Assembly: GCF_900215325.1 (NCBI RefSeq)
Contig: NZ_OCMS01000005.1
Span: forward strand, 124,001-188,000
Source of the DNA: Fibrobacter sp. UWB16
GTDB lineage: Bacteria; Fibrobacterota; Fibrobacteria; Fibrobacterales; Fibrobacteraceae
Direction: 5' to 3'
DNA length: 64,000 bases
Shown: in pieces, positions 956-12,666 of the stretch
How the letters are laid out: each line of letters opens with the position of its first letter
Numbering within the stretch: position 1 is the stretch's first letter
Notes under the pieces: model-generated
The model's input: the letters and a program-made list of their open reading frames with translations, nothing else
Database searches by the model: none
Told to the model about the DNA's origin: nothing
Made by a program: the position numbers and the translations under genes

Positions 956-1146
956 CTTTTGTACTCCTTTTAACCCTAATCCTAATGAGTACCCAATATT
1001 ATTTAAGATAAACAAAAAGTAAGCTAAAAGATGTAAAGAAAAATATGCAAAGTTCCACGATAACCAAAATAATGGTAACGCTATTGAACACCTCCCTTTT
1101 AAAATTGAATATCTTTTTATCAGTAAAGTTTAAGTTGGAGGTTCTC

Positions 1147-2043
1147 GTGTCTCGTTCCTTGAAGTTTTCGCTTGCTTTGTCGGCTGCGGTTGCCGCATCT
1201 GCAATGCTTTCGGCCTGTGAAAAACAGGACGCTCAGCAGTCTAAGACCCAACCCGCGCCTGCTGCCGAAGTGACTCCGCAACAGTCCAAGTCCGTCGTGG
1301 TTTATTTCTCTCAGACGGGTGCCACCAAAAAGTTGGCTCAGGTTTTCAAGGAAGCCCGCAATGCAGACGAATTTGAACTCCAGCTTGTAAAGCCGTTCCC
1401 TTCGACTTACGACAGCACGATTGCCGAAGTCCGTGCCGAACGCGAAAGCAAGCGGTGGCCTGCTCTTGTGAATGCAAAAGTGGAACTCGCCAAGTACGAT
1501 ACCGTGTTCCTCGGTTACCCGATTATGTTCGGAACTTTCACTCCGCCGATTTACACATTCCTTGACGCAAACGACTTGAGCGGCAAGGTCGTAGTGCCGT
1601 TCTGCACTTACGGTAGCGGCGGTCGCAAGGCGAGCGCCGATGAACTCAAGACTCTTGAACCGAAAGCCAACGTGACGATCGCTTATGGAATTTCTAACAA
1701 GCGAATTACTGCTGAAGGCGGTGTCGAAAAGGCTAAGGAAGAAGTCGCGACATTCTTTGCTAATCTTGAAACGGGCAAGACTGAAGAAATGCTTGCTGGT
1801 GGCTTCTCGGAACAGCGCCCGCTCACGGCCGAAGATTCTGCCGTGTTTGCCGCAGCTACCAAGGATTACGCCTATTTGGGCTTAAAACCACTCAGCGTCT
1901 CGACGCAGGTTGTCGCTGGAATGAACTACCTCTTCGTTTGCGAAATGAAGGCTTTCGGTGGACCGGCAACGCAGACGAATGTCAAGATTTTCAAGCCGCT
2001 TCCGGGCCGTGGTGAACCGGAAATGATTGTCGTCGAAAAGTAA
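1147..2043 (+). CDS. Flavodoxin-domain lipoprotein with C-terminal stefin/cystatin-like domain
   Basis: I chose the GTG at 1147 over the upstream ATG at 1045 because a GGAGG lies 5 nt before it and the protein then starts with a classic lipoprotein signal (lipobox LSAC near residue 24). Residues about 45-200 are a flavodoxin fold: VVYFSQTGATKKLA is the FMN phosphate loop, followed by FLGYPIMFGTFTPP and FCTYGSGG. After a short linker, residues 217-298 look like a type 1 cystatin (stefin): a Gly-Gly start (218-219), an exact QVVAG loop (254-258) and a KPLPG turn (284-287). The role could be FMN-dependent redox chemistry outside the inner membrane plus cysteine-protease inhibition, but both functions are inferred from fold only. 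It is followed after 9 bp by the FISUMP gene. Confidence 0.85.
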   Translation: MSRSLKFSLALSAAVAASAMLSACEKQDAQQSKTQPAPAAEVTPQQSKSVVVYFSQTGATKKLAQVFKEARNADEFELQLVKPFPSTYDSTIAEVRAERESKRWPALVNAKVELAKYDTVFLGYPIMFGTFTPPIYTFLDANDLSGKVVVPFCTYGSGGRKASADELKTLEPKANVTIAYGISNKRITAEGGVEKAKEEVATFFANLETGKTEEMLAGGFSEQRPLTAEDSAVFAAATKDYAYLGLKPLSVSTQVVAGMNYLFVCEMKAFGGPATQTNVKIFKPLPGRGEPEMIVVEK

Positions 2044-2052
2044 ATTTGGAAT

Positions 2053-2640
2053 ATGAATTATATATCATCTGCTCTTGTAATAGCTCTCGTTGCGTCCAGC
2101 GCATCTCTTGCTGCCCCCAAAGCAAAAAAACAAGAACTCAAGGACCCGCGTGATAAGCAAAAGTACCGCCTTGTCAAAATTGATGACCGCACATGGATGG
2201 CGGACAACTTGAACTACAAAATGCCGGGCAGCACTTGCTATAGGGAAGATGACGATAATTGCATGGTCTATGGTCGCCTCTACACTTGGGATGCGGCAAA
2301 GTCTGCATGCCCTGCCGGTTTCCGCTTGCCGACAAACGAAGATTTCGAGAGCTTGTGGAAAGCCGCCGGTGGCGACTTCAATGCCGGCTATTTGATCAAG
2401 GCAAATTATGGATGGTCCGGCGAAACGAACGGAAACGATACGCTCAAGTTCAGCGCAATGCCATCCGGAAACATGTTTGATGATGGCACATACGGCAACG
2501 AAAGCAAGTTCGCGTTCTTCTGGAGCGCAAACACCGAAGCTAATGAAGCATCGGTGTGGTATCTTTCGTCAAAGTCGATGGGCTTTAGCTACATGATGAA
2601 GCCGAAAGCGTTCGGATTCTCAGTCCGCTGCGTGCAGTAA
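2053..2640 (+). CDS. FISUMP-domain secreted protein (Fibrobacter major paralogous domain)
   Basis: A 195-residue protein with an N-terminal signal peptide (hydrophobic 4-20, AxA-like site near 20). The rest matches the FISUMP/TIGR02145 domain pattern: DRTWMADNLNY, then YGRLYTWDAAKSACPAGFRLPTNEDFESLW, and a C-terminal block ending in FSVRCVQ. Paired cysteines (CYREDDDNC, SAC, RCV) suggest disulfides outside the cytoplasm. The family is greatly expanded in Fibrobacter and has no proven biochemical role. It lies 9 bp after the flavodoxin lipoprotein gene, so the two are probably co-transcribed. A strong terminator follows. Confidence 0.85.
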   Translation: MNYISSALVIALVASSASLAAPKAKKQELKDPRDKQKYRLVKIDDRTWMADNLNYKMPGSTCYREDDDNCMVYGRLYTWDAAKSACPAGFRLPTNEDFESLWKAAGGDFNAGYLIKANYGWSGETNGNDTLKFSAMPSGNMFDDGTYGNESKFAFFWSANTEANEASVWYLSSKSMGFSYMMKPKAFGFSVRCVQ

Positions 2641-2785: not shown

Positions 2786-5608
2786 ATGGATGAATTAAAG
2801 CCCGAAGAACAAGCTCGTGTTTTGATAGATGAAATGCTCGCCGCAGCCGGCTGGGCAGTTGTTCCGCGTACTGAGTATTTGGATGTTCCGCATGCACAGG
2901 CGGTTACCGAGGCCTTAACTAAAGGAAATAACGAAGCTGATTATCTGCTTTTCTTAGATGGAAAGGCTATTGGTGTTTTAGAGGCTAAACGTGCTGAAAA
3001 TTCTCTAGGTGGAAAAGTTGCAGAACAAACGGCGAAGTATTCCGCAGGGGCGCTTCCTTGGTACCAAACATGGACAAAACCTTTGCCATTCCTTTTCATG
3101 TGTAATGGCGACAAGTTGCTGTTCTGCGACCGAAGGGATTTCGCTGCTGGAGAGCCTCTGGAGTTCCTTGAACTTAAAAAGATGTTCACGCCGAAAGAAG
3201 TCGCAATTCGTGCGGAACTTAAATCTGAATTTGCAAAAATGCCTGCGGTTCCCGCAGTGCAGACGAAGGCCAAAGCAGGTTTGCGCCAATGCCAGTACGA
3301 TGCAATTTGCAACTTGGAACTGAGCTTTAAGCATGGCAAGAAAAAGGCTTTGATTGTCCTTGCAACGGGTGCTGGTAAAACATTTACTGCATGCACAGCG
3401 GCGTATCGTTTGCTCAATTATACCCCGGCTAAAAAAGTCTTGTTCCTGGTGGACCGCAACAACCTTGGCAAACAAGCCGAAGGCGAGTTCGGGACGTACA
3501 AGCTTACGGAAACAGGAATTCCGTTTAGTGATGAGTATGTCGTTCAGCGTCTCCACAACGTGAAGGATATCGAAAAGTCCCATGTGGTGATATCCACCAT
3601 TCAGCGTCTTTATGCTGTTTTGACCGGGCAAACCTTTGTTGATACCGATGATGACGAATCAGAACTTGATGGCGACTCAACAAACGATCAGTCCTCCGTA
3701 AGCATTGAACTTCCGCAAGATTTGAAGGTTGCAAGAGATACCTTCGATTTGATTATTGTGGATGAATGCCACCGTTCCATTTATGGCAAATGGAAACAGG
3801 TGCTCGATTATTTCAATACGGCCCGTGTCGTTGGATTGACTGCGACTCCGACCGAAGAGGCTTACGCGTTCTTCAACAAGAATACGGTGGTAGAATACAC
3901 CCTCGAAGATTCTATCCGCGATGGCGTGAACGTACCCCCGCGCGTATTCCGCATCAAGACTTTAGTCAGTTCGCAGGGAGGGACAATCGGTCAGGGCGAA
4001 CACGTAGAGCGCATTACGCTCTTGGATGGTTCCAAGCAAAAGAAAATTCAGAAAGAGGACCAAAAGTACGAAAGTACCGAACTAGACCGCAGTGTCGTGA
4101 ACCCGGCACAGATTAGGCTCGTAGTTGACTCCTTTAAGCAAGCCATTTATTCGTCGCTTTACCCAGAACGTTTGGGCGATGACCCTGTCCGCAATTGGAA
4201 ATATATTCCCAAGACGCTTTTCTTTGCAAAGACCGACAGCCACGCCGACAACATCGTTGATGCCATCAAACAGTCCTTTGCTGTTGAATTTGAAAAGGTG
4301 GGGCTCAAACTCCCCGAAAAGTTCGTGCAGAAGATTACTTGTAAAGCAGGAAATTCCAATCAGCTGATTTCCGATTTCAGGAACGAGAAGGAATTTCGCA
4401 TTGCGGTGACGGTGACGCTTGTGGCGACCGGTACGGATGTGAAACCTTTGGAAGTCCTAGTGTTCATGCGCGATATCAATTCTGCCGTACTTTACACGCA
4501 GATGAAAGGTCGCGGTTGCCGAACGATGGACGACGACAAATTCCAGCTTGCAACTCCGAACGGAACGAGTAAGGACTGTTTCTACTTAGTCGATGCGGTT
4601 GGTGTTACCGAACACGAAATGAAACTTCCGGGTGCGGCTAGCGATGCGGAATTTCACAAGACCTTGGGACTCGAAAGGTTGATGGAACGCCTGGCCCATG
4701 GCGAAGTTCCTGATGAGCACTTGAATTTGTTTGCGGGCTATCTCTCGAAAATAAACAACAAGGCCGAACAAGAAGATTTGAGCGAAGTAAACAAGTTGCT
4801 AGCTCCGACATCCCTGTATTTCTTTGTAAGTCGAATTTATGACGCCCTCACAGGTAAGAACGAATTCTCGACGCATCCTTTACCGGAATACAAGGATATC
4901 AACGACGCTAACATTGAACGCAGGGAATTGATTTCTGCAGTCATCAACAATGTCAAGGTTCGCAAGGTTCTCCTTGAAATCAATCGTGGCTTTATCAAGA
5001 TTCAGCATGAAGGCACTGATAGTCTAGTTTACTCCGGTTTCAGCATTGATGAATCTAAAAAGTATGCGGAAATTTTTAAGGATTTTATTGAGCAGAATCG
5101 TGATGAAGTGGAAGCTCTGCGCATTATCTACAACAGCGAAGATGTTGCCATTACCTACGAAATGCTCTCGGATTTGAAGCGCAAACTCGAAAAGTTCAAT
5201 CCGATGCTGAACGAAAAGAATCTTTGGACTTGCTACAAGACATTGTCCGTGAATAAAGTGGGGAAGGCCGGAAAAGTAAAGGACCTGGAAAAGGACGAAG
5301 TTGGCCTTTTGACGAACCTTATACAGTTAGTACGTTATGCTTTGGGGCAAAAAGAGTCGCTTTATTCATTGCAAAGCACTTCTGCCAGCCTTTTTGAATT
5401 ATACTGCGGTCAAAATCAACGCGTGTTAAACGAAGATCAAAAGCAGGTGCTTAAGAGGATTGCTCAATATGTTGTGCAGAACGGTTGTGTCTCGGCGCCA
5501 ATCCTGATGCAGTATGAAAAACCTCTATTCTTGCAAGCGGCAAAATTCTTCGGCCCGCAAAATGTTAATACCGAAATCCAGAACCTGACAAAGTTCATGT
5601 TCCAGTAA
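2786..5608 (+). CDS. hsdR: Type I restriction endonuclease, R subunit
   Basis: Motor and nuclease subunit of a type I restriction-modification complex: it translocates DNA and cuts far from the recognition site when the site is unmethylated. The N-terminal nuclease domain shows the PD-(D/E)XK remnant D-x(n)-LEAK (Glu66, Lys68). The helicase core follows: Walker A ATGAGKT near 193-199, DECH near 325-328, SAT-equivalent GLTATPT, and motif VI QMKGRGCR. The C-terminal third is the helical region that docks on the methylase. At 940 residues it is near the usual family length. It starts a tight operon with hsdM (6-bp gap) and hsdS. The ATG at 2786 has no clear Shine-Dalgarno. Confidence 0.95.
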   Translation: MDELKPEEQARVLIDEMLAAAGWAVVPRTEYLDVPHAQAVTEALTKGNNEADYLLFLDGKAIGVLEAKRAENSLGGKVAEQTAKYSAGALPWYQTWTKPLPFLFMCNGDKLLFCDRRDFAAGEPLEFLELKKMFTPKEVAIRAELKSEFAKMPAVPAVQTKAKAGLRQCQYDAICNLELSFKHGKKKALIVLATGAGKTFTACTAAYRLLNYTPAKKVLFLVDRNNLGKQAEGEFGTYKLTETGIPFSDEYVVQRLHNVKDIEKSHVVISTIQRLYAVLTGQTFVDTDDDESELDGDSTNDQSSVSIELPQDLKVARDTFDLIIVDECHRSIYGKWKQVLDYFNTARVVGLTATPTEEAYAFFNKNTVVEYTLEDSIRDGVNVPPRVFRIKTLVSSQGGTIGQGEHVERITLLDGSKQKKIQKEDQKYESTELDRSVVNPAQIRLVVDSFKQAIYSSLYPERLGDDPVRNWKYIPKTLFFAKTDSHADNIVDAIKQSFAVEFEKVGLKLPEKFVQKITCKAGNSNQLISDFRNEKEFRIAVTVTLVATGTDVKPLEVLVFMRDINSAVLYTQMKGRGCRTMDDDKFQLATPNGTSKDCFYLVDAVGVTEHEMKLPGAASDAEFHKTLGLERLMERLAHGEVPDEHLNLFAGYLSKINNKAEQEDLSEVNKLLAPTSLYFFVSRIYDALTGKNEFSTHPLPEYKDINDANIERRELISAVINNVKVRKVLLEINRGFIKIQHEGTDSLVYSGFSIDESKKYAEIFKDFIEQNRDEVEALRIIYNSEDVAITYEMLSDLKRKLEKFNPMLNEKNLWTCYKTLSVNKVGKAGKVKDLEKDEVGLLTNLIQLVRYALGQKESLYSLQSTSASLFELYCGQNQRVLNEDQKQVLKRIAQYVVQNGCVSAPILMQYEKPLFLQAAKFFGPQNVNTEIQNLTKFMFQ

Positions 5609-8475
<2,867 letters not shown>

Positions 8476-8505
<30 letters not shown>

Positions 8506-9069
8506 CGTAGAAAACAGTTCTTCAATCTTTGCAACAATCCGAGATTGCTCATTAAGTGGAGGAATCGCAATAAACGATTTTCTCATTTGCTCTAAATAGA
8601 AACCCAATTGAGCTGTTCCTGTTGCATTCTCCACTATGTATTTTTGATAGTAATTAGAATCGAAGAAATATTTCAAGTACTTATTATAAATATTGGTATG
8701 TATGACGGATACACTTCTCTGAAAACAATATTTGCCATCACCCGAAAAAACACAACTTCGCCCCAAACTTCCAACGGATGTAAAAAGAATATCGCCTTTT
8801 TCTAATTTCGTTCGAAGGTTTTCTTCTTCAAACATATCTTTCGACAAATAACGTACATTTTCAAGATCAACGATATCATTGTCGTTGATGTTTCGAGAAG
8901 AAAGCATAATGTATTCTGTTGTGCGATTGAGTCCTTTAGGTGGATTATGGTCTCCATCTATTAGCTTATCGCAAATATTCCCTAGCCTGCACCACACCCA
9001 ATTTTGGGGTATTTCAAAAGGTTCGTCCTCTATCTTCTCATAATGGGGGTTATGTTTTTTTTGATACAC
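8476..9069 (-). CDS. Silent inverted hsdS half-gene (alternative TRD2 cassette)
   Basis: A 197-residue reading frame for one specificity half: NPHYEK at residue 7, PFEIPQNWVWCRLGNI, a TRD with IDGDHNPPKG, and the terminal IPPLNEQSRIVAKIEELF block ending NLV. It lacks TRD1 and the central conserved helices, and I see no ribosome-binding site or promoter before its nominal start at 9069, so it should be silent in this orientation. It converges on the expressed hsdS, with a 30-bp overlap of tails. Most likely it is a storage cassette exchanged by inversion; it could instead be a decayed duplicate, but the reading frame is fully open. Confidence 0.85.
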
Positions 9070-11835: not shown

Positions 11836-12666
11836 ATGGATTGTTTCGTTTTCTACCTTGCAGAAAGACCTTCGTTTTACCAGTATCTGGAAGGGCAGAA
11901 CCTTGCTGTCAATACGATGGATTCGTATTGCTGGACAGCGGACTTCTTCAAGTCGCATTTCGGACGGTTCGGTCGTAAGTCGCTGGCTGATTATAAGAGT
12001 TTTCTTTTAGAAAATTACAAACCCAAAACTGTTAATTTGCGAATTCAGGGCATCAACAAGTATTTGGATTTTGCAGGCAAATCGAAGTTACGGATCAAGA
12101 ATGTCAAGGTTCAGCAAAAAAGTTTTCTGGAAAATGTCATTAGCGATGCCGATTACAAATTTTTGAAAACTAGTCTATTGCAAGATGGTCAGACTAAGTG
12201 GTATTTTGTCGTGTGGTTTCTATCGGCGACGGGAGCCCGTGTAGGGGAACTTGTGAAACTCAAGGTGGAACATGTGGAATGCGGATATTTCGACATCTAC
12301 GGAAAGGGCGGAAAGTTGCGTCGGCTCTACATTCCTGAGACATTGCAAAAAGAATCTTTGCGCTGGTTGGAAAGTGAAGGCCGCTCCAGCGGATACCTGT
12401 TCTTGAATCGTTTTGGCAAGGAGATTACCCCGCGGGGGATTGCATCGCAACTGAAAGCGTTCGCAATGAAGTATGGCCTAGATGAAGCCGTCGTTTATCC
12501 CCATTCGTTCCGTCACCGGTTTGCCAAGAATTTCTTGGAAAAGCGAAACGACATCGCTTTGCTTGCTGACCTTATGGGGCACGAACATATCGAAACGACT
12601 CGTATTTATTTGCGCCAGACAGCAAGTGAACAACGTGAAGTTGTGAATAAGGTGGTGACGTGGTAA
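11836..12666 (+). CDS. Tyrosine recombinase (phage integrase family)
   Basis: Site-specific recombinase of 276 residues. An N-terminal SAM-like core-binding domain (1-100, with MDSYCWTADFFKSHFG) precedes the catalytic domain. All catalytic residues are visible: Arg135 in TGARVGEL, Lys157 or Lys160 in the GKGGKL hairpin, His223-x-x-Arg226 (HSFRHRF), His249 (GHEHIETT) and nucleophile Tyr258 (RIYLR). The ATG at 11836 follows GGAGAGGAG. It begins 18 bp after the ATPase stop, in the same orientation. Small solo recombinases of this kind often invert hsdS cassettes in other bacteria, so it is the best local candidate for the inversion at 7913-9053. It could instead be the integrase of a decayed island. 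Confidence 0.9.
   Translation: MDCFVFYLAERPSFYQYLEGQNLAVNTMDSYCWTADFFKSHFGRFGRKSLADYKSFLLENYKPKTVNLRIQGINKYLDFAGKSKLRIKNVKVQQKSFLENVISDADYKFLKTSLLQDGQTKWYFVVWFLSATGARVGELVKLKVEHVECGYFDIYGKGGKLRRLYIPETLQKESLRWLESEGRSSGYLFLNRFGKEITPRGIASQLKAFAMKYGLDEAVVYPHSFRHRFAKNFLEKRNDIALLADLMGHEHIETTRIYLRQTASEQREVVNKVVTW

Follow-up and report, generated by a model that had tools for sequence, protein, structure and literature searches.

The window analysed here is a 64,000-nucleotide stretch of the Fibrobacter sp. UWB16 genome (contig NZ_OCMS01000005.1, positions 124,001 to 188,000), and all coordinates below are given within it unless a locus is named. A gene on the forward strand at 1147..2043, stop codon included, encodes a lipoprotein of 298 residues in which a flavodoxin domain is followed by a stefin-like domain. 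The open reading frame starts with GTG, and a GGAGG ribosome-binding site can be read directly 5' of it (1138..1142, forward strand). Its orthologues begin at the same place, most of them with ATG, which favours the GTG start at 1147 over the longer form in the list of open reading frames that begins with ATG at 1045. Nine bases downstream, also on the forward strand, lies a gene for an exported FISUMP-domain protein (2053..2640; TIGR02145, 2.8e-55). We considered this neighbour as a functional partner; the two genes adjoin only in close relatives, yet one stefin-FISUMP fusion exists elsewhere (L062), and we draw no conclusion. Further along the window, a type I restriction-modification set (2786-9069 and 11836-12666) contains HsdR-like and HsdM-like ORFs and a two-domain hsdS at 7048-8505. 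A second, partial hsdS, on the opposite strand at 8476-9069, resembles the first in inverted orientation (62 nt, 73%). Nearby lies a tyrosine-recombinase-like ORF; this set, with its two hsdS genes, could be an invertible specificity locus.

The flavodoxin-stefin protein begins with a lipoprotein signal peptide recognisable in the sequence (1147..1218, forward strand), with the lipobox LSAC and a predicted lipidated Cys24 (1216-1218) that is invariant in 23 aligned orthologues. It continues into a fast-evolving linker rich in Gln, Ala and Pro (1219..1284, forward strand; median dN/dS 0.62), and residues 1-45 are disordered in the full-length model. The linker residues past Cys24 carry no clear surface-export signal; judging from the sequence, the lipoprotein might face the periplasm rather than the cell surface. 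The Flavodoxin_4 domain that follows (1285..1761, forward strand; residues about 47-205) matches PF12682 at 6e-20 over residues 49-177, with 71.8 bits against a cut-off of 24. By sequence and fold alike it resembles the Bacteroides flavoproteins 4J8P, 4ICI and 3KLB, including their phosphate loop; unlike the window protein, these structures have no stefin tail. The loop reads SQTGAT in the window protein, the pattern SQxGxT is invariant in 23 orthologues, and the domain is predicted to bind FMN. Three other proteins (L027, L029, L030) look exported and combine a sulfatase-modifying-factor-like N-terminal part with a C-terminal flavodoxin, in regions with several further flavodoxin matches.

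The stefin-like (type 1 cystatin) domain occupies residues 214-298 (1786..2040, forward strand) and is supported by sequence homology, profile and fold. When the 88-residue tail alone was compared with all PDB chains by phmmer, it matched human stefin A with an E of 1e-4. A profile built from 25 sequences of the family matched nothing but cystatins in the PDB, the best being a Fasciola type 1 cystatin (2.7e-8) and stefin A (1.6e-7), and none of 200,000 shuffles of the domain reproduced the ordered contact motifs. Together, these three results rule out a chance motif match. The score against the Pfam Cystatin model (PF00031) is 16.3 bits, below the 22.2-bit gathering cut-off, which is a curation threshold that some relatives exceed; automatic annotation would therefore miss the stefin domain and name the protein only a flavodoxin.

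Some features of the domain depart from stefin A. The segment ahead of QVVAG is about 6-8 residues shorter, and the chain ends 11 residues past the LPG turn, with the stefin A match stopping at residue 79 of 98; the usual C terminus that a preliminary description of this DNA had attributed to the protein is thus missing. There is one Cys in the domain (265), and hence no intradomain disulphide. A classical animal stefin is a single domain of about 98 residues with no signal peptide, and the present protein has both a lipoprotein signal and a flavodoxin partner. These data confirm that the C-terminal tail is a stefin-type member of the cystatin superfamily; its architecture is new, and it does not count as a classical stefin. 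The fusion of flavodoxin lipoprotein and stefin-like domain, also put forward in the preliminary description, is real and conserved across orthologues.

An AlphaFold model of the window domain, made with 24 relatives (pLDDT 89.8), has one helix (18-34) lying against a four-stranded sheet (strands 36-46, 48-57, 65-74 and 82-87); QVVAG lies at its first hairpin, and LPG occupies the other. A Foldseek search of the PDB ranked CsStefin-1, Dictyostelium cystatin A2, stefin B in its papain complex, Fasciola stefin and stefin A at the top, with probability 1.00 and TM of 0.6-0.7; the E of only about 2e-3 is expected for so small a domain. The cystatin wedge of sheet and helix is therefore present in the predicted fold, and its top PDB matches are all stefins or cystatins. 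In the full-length model (pLDDT 80, pTM 0.60), the N-terminal part matches Bacteroides flavoproteins, and the placement of the domains relative to each other is unreliable.

The three elements through which stefins contact their targets had been noted at the outset, and they hold up: an N-terminal Gly-Gly, an exact QVVAG and an LPG, in stefin order, kept in orthologues across the genus. The Gly-Gly (residues 218-219; 1798..1803, forward strand) includes a first Gly that is invariant in the alignment; QVVAG (residues 254-258; 1906..1920, forward strand) forms the first hairpin loop, between model strands 36-46 and 48-57; and LPG (residues 285-287; 1999..2007, forward strand) forms the second, between strands 65-74 and 82-87. 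Mean conservation is 0.96 at the contact positions and 0.82 over the rest of the stefin domain. Across 25 domains of several architectures, the Gly, Q-x-V-x-G, and an N, an F and a C are invariant. An orthologue in a sister genus (genome G153; L104:6091-6981) reads AS in place of GG, KDSAG in place of QVVAG (the raw reading; once aligned, this element is shorter by one residue) and LSE in place of LPG. The flavodoxin persists there alongside degraded contact elements, which indicates that it does not need the inhibitor. This protein retains 14 of 22 highly conserved non-contact sites compared with 3 of 10 contact residues; with a Fisher p of 0.23, we do not take this joint loss as proof of inhibitor function, and it is suggestive only.

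The stefin domain is found in 68 of the 80 genomes of the genus Fibrobacter and in 71 of the 168 genomes of the phylum. In nearly all phylum carriers the architecture is the same lipoprotein-flavodoxin-stefin fusion; outside the genus, two genomes of a sister genus have it, as does one of a different family. The closest named relatives of the host genome are Fibrobacter succinogenes assemblies. Purifying selection acts strongly on both domains, with median dN/dS of 0.10 for the stefin and 0.12 for the flavodoxin, compared with the much higher value of the linker. A further flavodoxin-stefin fusion occurs in a rumen Bacteroidales genome, RUG470 (L154), with identity of 49 and 51 percent in the two domains. 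We set aside a binning error as its origin: by reading alone, the metabolic genes on either side (citrate synthase, aconitase-like, aspartate carbamoyltransferase) seem different from those read around the Fibrobacter gene and suit the assigned taxon.

Scanning 84,980 genomes with the pattern VAGxNxFxC yielded 251 relatives, of which 80 were kept. Conservation of QxVxG among them is partly by construction, given this pattern; the N-terminal Gly and a PLPG-like loop lie outside the pattern, yet nearly all of the relatives have these too. In Fibrobacter itself there are a lipoprotein with three stefins in tandem (genome G007, L061:2929-4242), two with double stefins (genomes G059 and G060, L063:3028-3852 and L065:3123-3698), a single stefin (L064) and a stefin fused to a FISUMP domain (L062). 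The tandem forms are a bacterial counterpart of the multicystatins. One more Fibrobacter protein (L066; G019:C41, ORF from about 1714) has no signal peptide and two divergent stefin-like repeats, with QVVNG and QVTKG, and is possibly a second stefin lineage in the genus. Small lone stefin lipoproteins occur in Alistipes and other Bacteroidales; in the stefin proteins of Tenacibaculum a signal peptide is not evident. Elsewhere the domain forms the C-terminal tail of Bacteroidales Asparaginase_2 enzymes (L158:1993-3219, L162:1993-3219) or is fused to META (L173) or to SLH repeats (L184). In Saezia sanguinis (L171:2701-3255), a chagasin domain (PF09394, 3.5e-10) precedes the stefin domain, and this protein is probably a double-headed cysteine protease inhibitor. 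The chagasin family (I42), likewise papain-family inhibitors used by bacteria, has an unrelated immunoglobulin-like fold and is absent from the window protein. That a single chain combines two folds known to inhibit cysteine proteases favours an inhibitor role for the stefin domain and is the best guilt-by-association evidence for it; the tandem copies and the small lone lipoproteins also speak for this role.

Taking these observations together, we consider it likely that the gene encodes an exported flavodoxin, anchored by a lipid, that bears a functional stefin inhibitor directed against foreign papain-like (C1) proteases. What computation shows is a lipoprotein signal, the two domains, homology to stefins with a matching fold, contact elements that are intact, purifying selection and the lack of a Peptidase_C1 match in the host; from this we infer inhibition, an exogenous target and exposure at the cell surface. 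According to this model, the flavodoxin would be exported to the envelope and anchored there by its lipid, bearing the stefin module at its C terminus. The wedge formed by the Gly-Gly trunk, the QVVAG loop and the LPG loop would fill the active-site cleft of C1 proteases that reach the bacterium from outside, for example from rumen ciliates that graze on bacteria, from feed plants, from the animal host or from neighbouring gut bacteria; blocking them would protect the flavodoxin lipoprotein and its envelope surroundings. The stefin may simply guard the flavodoxin, as it may other carriers. The shorter helix region and missing C-terminal tail may weaken protease binding.

We detected no match to the Peptidase_C1 family in the host genome in a search in which positive controls were detected, and the target is therefore probably foreign; partial matches, covering 37-40 positions only, occur in 7 of the 80 genus genomes. 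Cysteine peptidases are described as the predominant class in the rumen (PMC6908469). Rumen ciliates engulf bacteria and show strong expression of C01A cathepsins; among the C01A peptidases at high expression in E. caudatum are cathepsins B and F (PMC6925433). The abundance of Fibrobacter rose 2.6-fold in a treatment with iodoacetamide, a correlation with many possible causes (PMC6908469). The protection against papain-like proteases of protozoa, plants or host envisaged in the preliminary description is plausible, with indirect backing from the lack of a Peptidase_C1 match, the chagasin-stefin protein and the ciliate cathepsins. In the literature searched we found no bacterial stefin with measured inhibition, a 2012 review states that such data are lacking (PMC3594739), and inhibitory activity has been lost in many eukaryotic cystatins (PMC2784779). 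The host genome also encodes a C25 gingipain-type peptidase domain (L198; G000:C2:645055-646176) within a 1494-aa open frame, perhaps a PorU-like sortase.

That the likeness to stefins arose by convergence or chance, the tail being an unrelated domain, finds an argument in the score below the Pfam cut-off and is effectively refuted by the cystatin-only profile matches, the Foldseek probability of 1.00 to stefins and the retention of the motifs in hundreds of loci. A true stefin fold could instead have been turned, by co-option, to a binding or structural task, such as docking a partner or stabilising the flavodoxin, its motifs being kept for folding or for another ligand. Function has changed in other cystatins (PMC2784779), the Pfam model of SQAPI, an aspartic protease inhibitor of cystatin fold, scores some stefin relatives, and bacterial stefins share an NYxFxC stretch beyond the classical contact motif, whose Phe and Cys are invariant in the domains examined (the scan itself selected this stretch). 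Nevertheless, we think such co-option unlikely: the N-terminal Gly is invariant despite having no obvious folding role, it recurs with the second loop in relatives that were selected on VAGxNxFxC only, and the uneven retention of sites in L104 points suggestively in the same direction.

The inhibitor might also work closer to home, restraining an endogenous or interbacterial envelope protease such as the cell's own clan CD peptidases (C11, C25) or an effector injected by a competitor. The lipoprotein could sit in the periplasm, and the host encodes both a C25-type peptidase (the 1494-aa open frame) and a C11-type peptidase. However, cystatins use this edge on clan CA C1 proteases and are not known to do so on clan CD, to which both C11 and C25 belong. 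No recognisable peptidase gene lies beside the flavodoxin-stefin gene within the window, and the host genome gave no Peptidase_C1 match. We regard this alternative as more doubtful still than co-option.

Stefins are usually regarded as animal and protist proteins. Compared with those of known structure (MEROPS I25A; human stefin A, stefin B-papain 1STF, Clonorchis CsStefin-1 5ZC1 and the secreted type 1 cystatin of Fasciola, 6I1M), the window domain has the same fold and likewise no disulphide, and its Gly trunk, QxVxG loop and LPG loop follow one another in the same order at corresponding places. It differs in belonging to a bacterial lipoprotein, in standing behind a flavodoxin, in its length (about 85 residues compared with about 98), in its shorter helix region and C terminus, and in that its inhibitor role is predicted. 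Kordis and Turk (2009) reported bacterial stefins with contact motifs, patchily distributed over eight phyla, and proposed that these counter the proteases of eukaryotic hosts; they scored Fibrobacteres negative for stefins and cystatins and did not mention flavodoxin (PMC2784779). The present domain is of the same kind, here fused, lipid-anchored and near-universal in its genus (68/80). The open literature searched holds no description of a flavodoxin-stefin fusion or of its presence in Fibrobacterota, and the main text of the F. succinogenes S85 cell-envelope proteomics mentions neither flavodoxin nor cystatin. The novelty therefore lies in the fusion architecture and in how much more densely the domain is distributed; the domain itself is of a known kind, and the system as a whole is not a new one in kind.

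Viewed across all architectures, the stefin could be a mobile protective tail of gut bacteria, near-universal in Fibrobacter and repeatedly joined to exported proteins that are unrelated to one another (flavodoxin, asparaginase, META, SLH, FISUMP and chagasin carriers), such that carrier or cell resists papain-like proteases of bacterivorous protists, the host or neighbours; we offer this broader view tentatively, as possible rather than probable. The chagasin-stefin and tandem forms are ready tools and controls. In contrast to the rare, scattered bacterial stefins reported earlier, here the domain sits on an envelope protein that is near-universal in a major rumen cellulose digester. If it does inhibit papain-like proteases, it would give a simple account of how bacteria protect their surface proteins among bacterivorous ciliates and in a lumen where cysteine proteases are plentiful.
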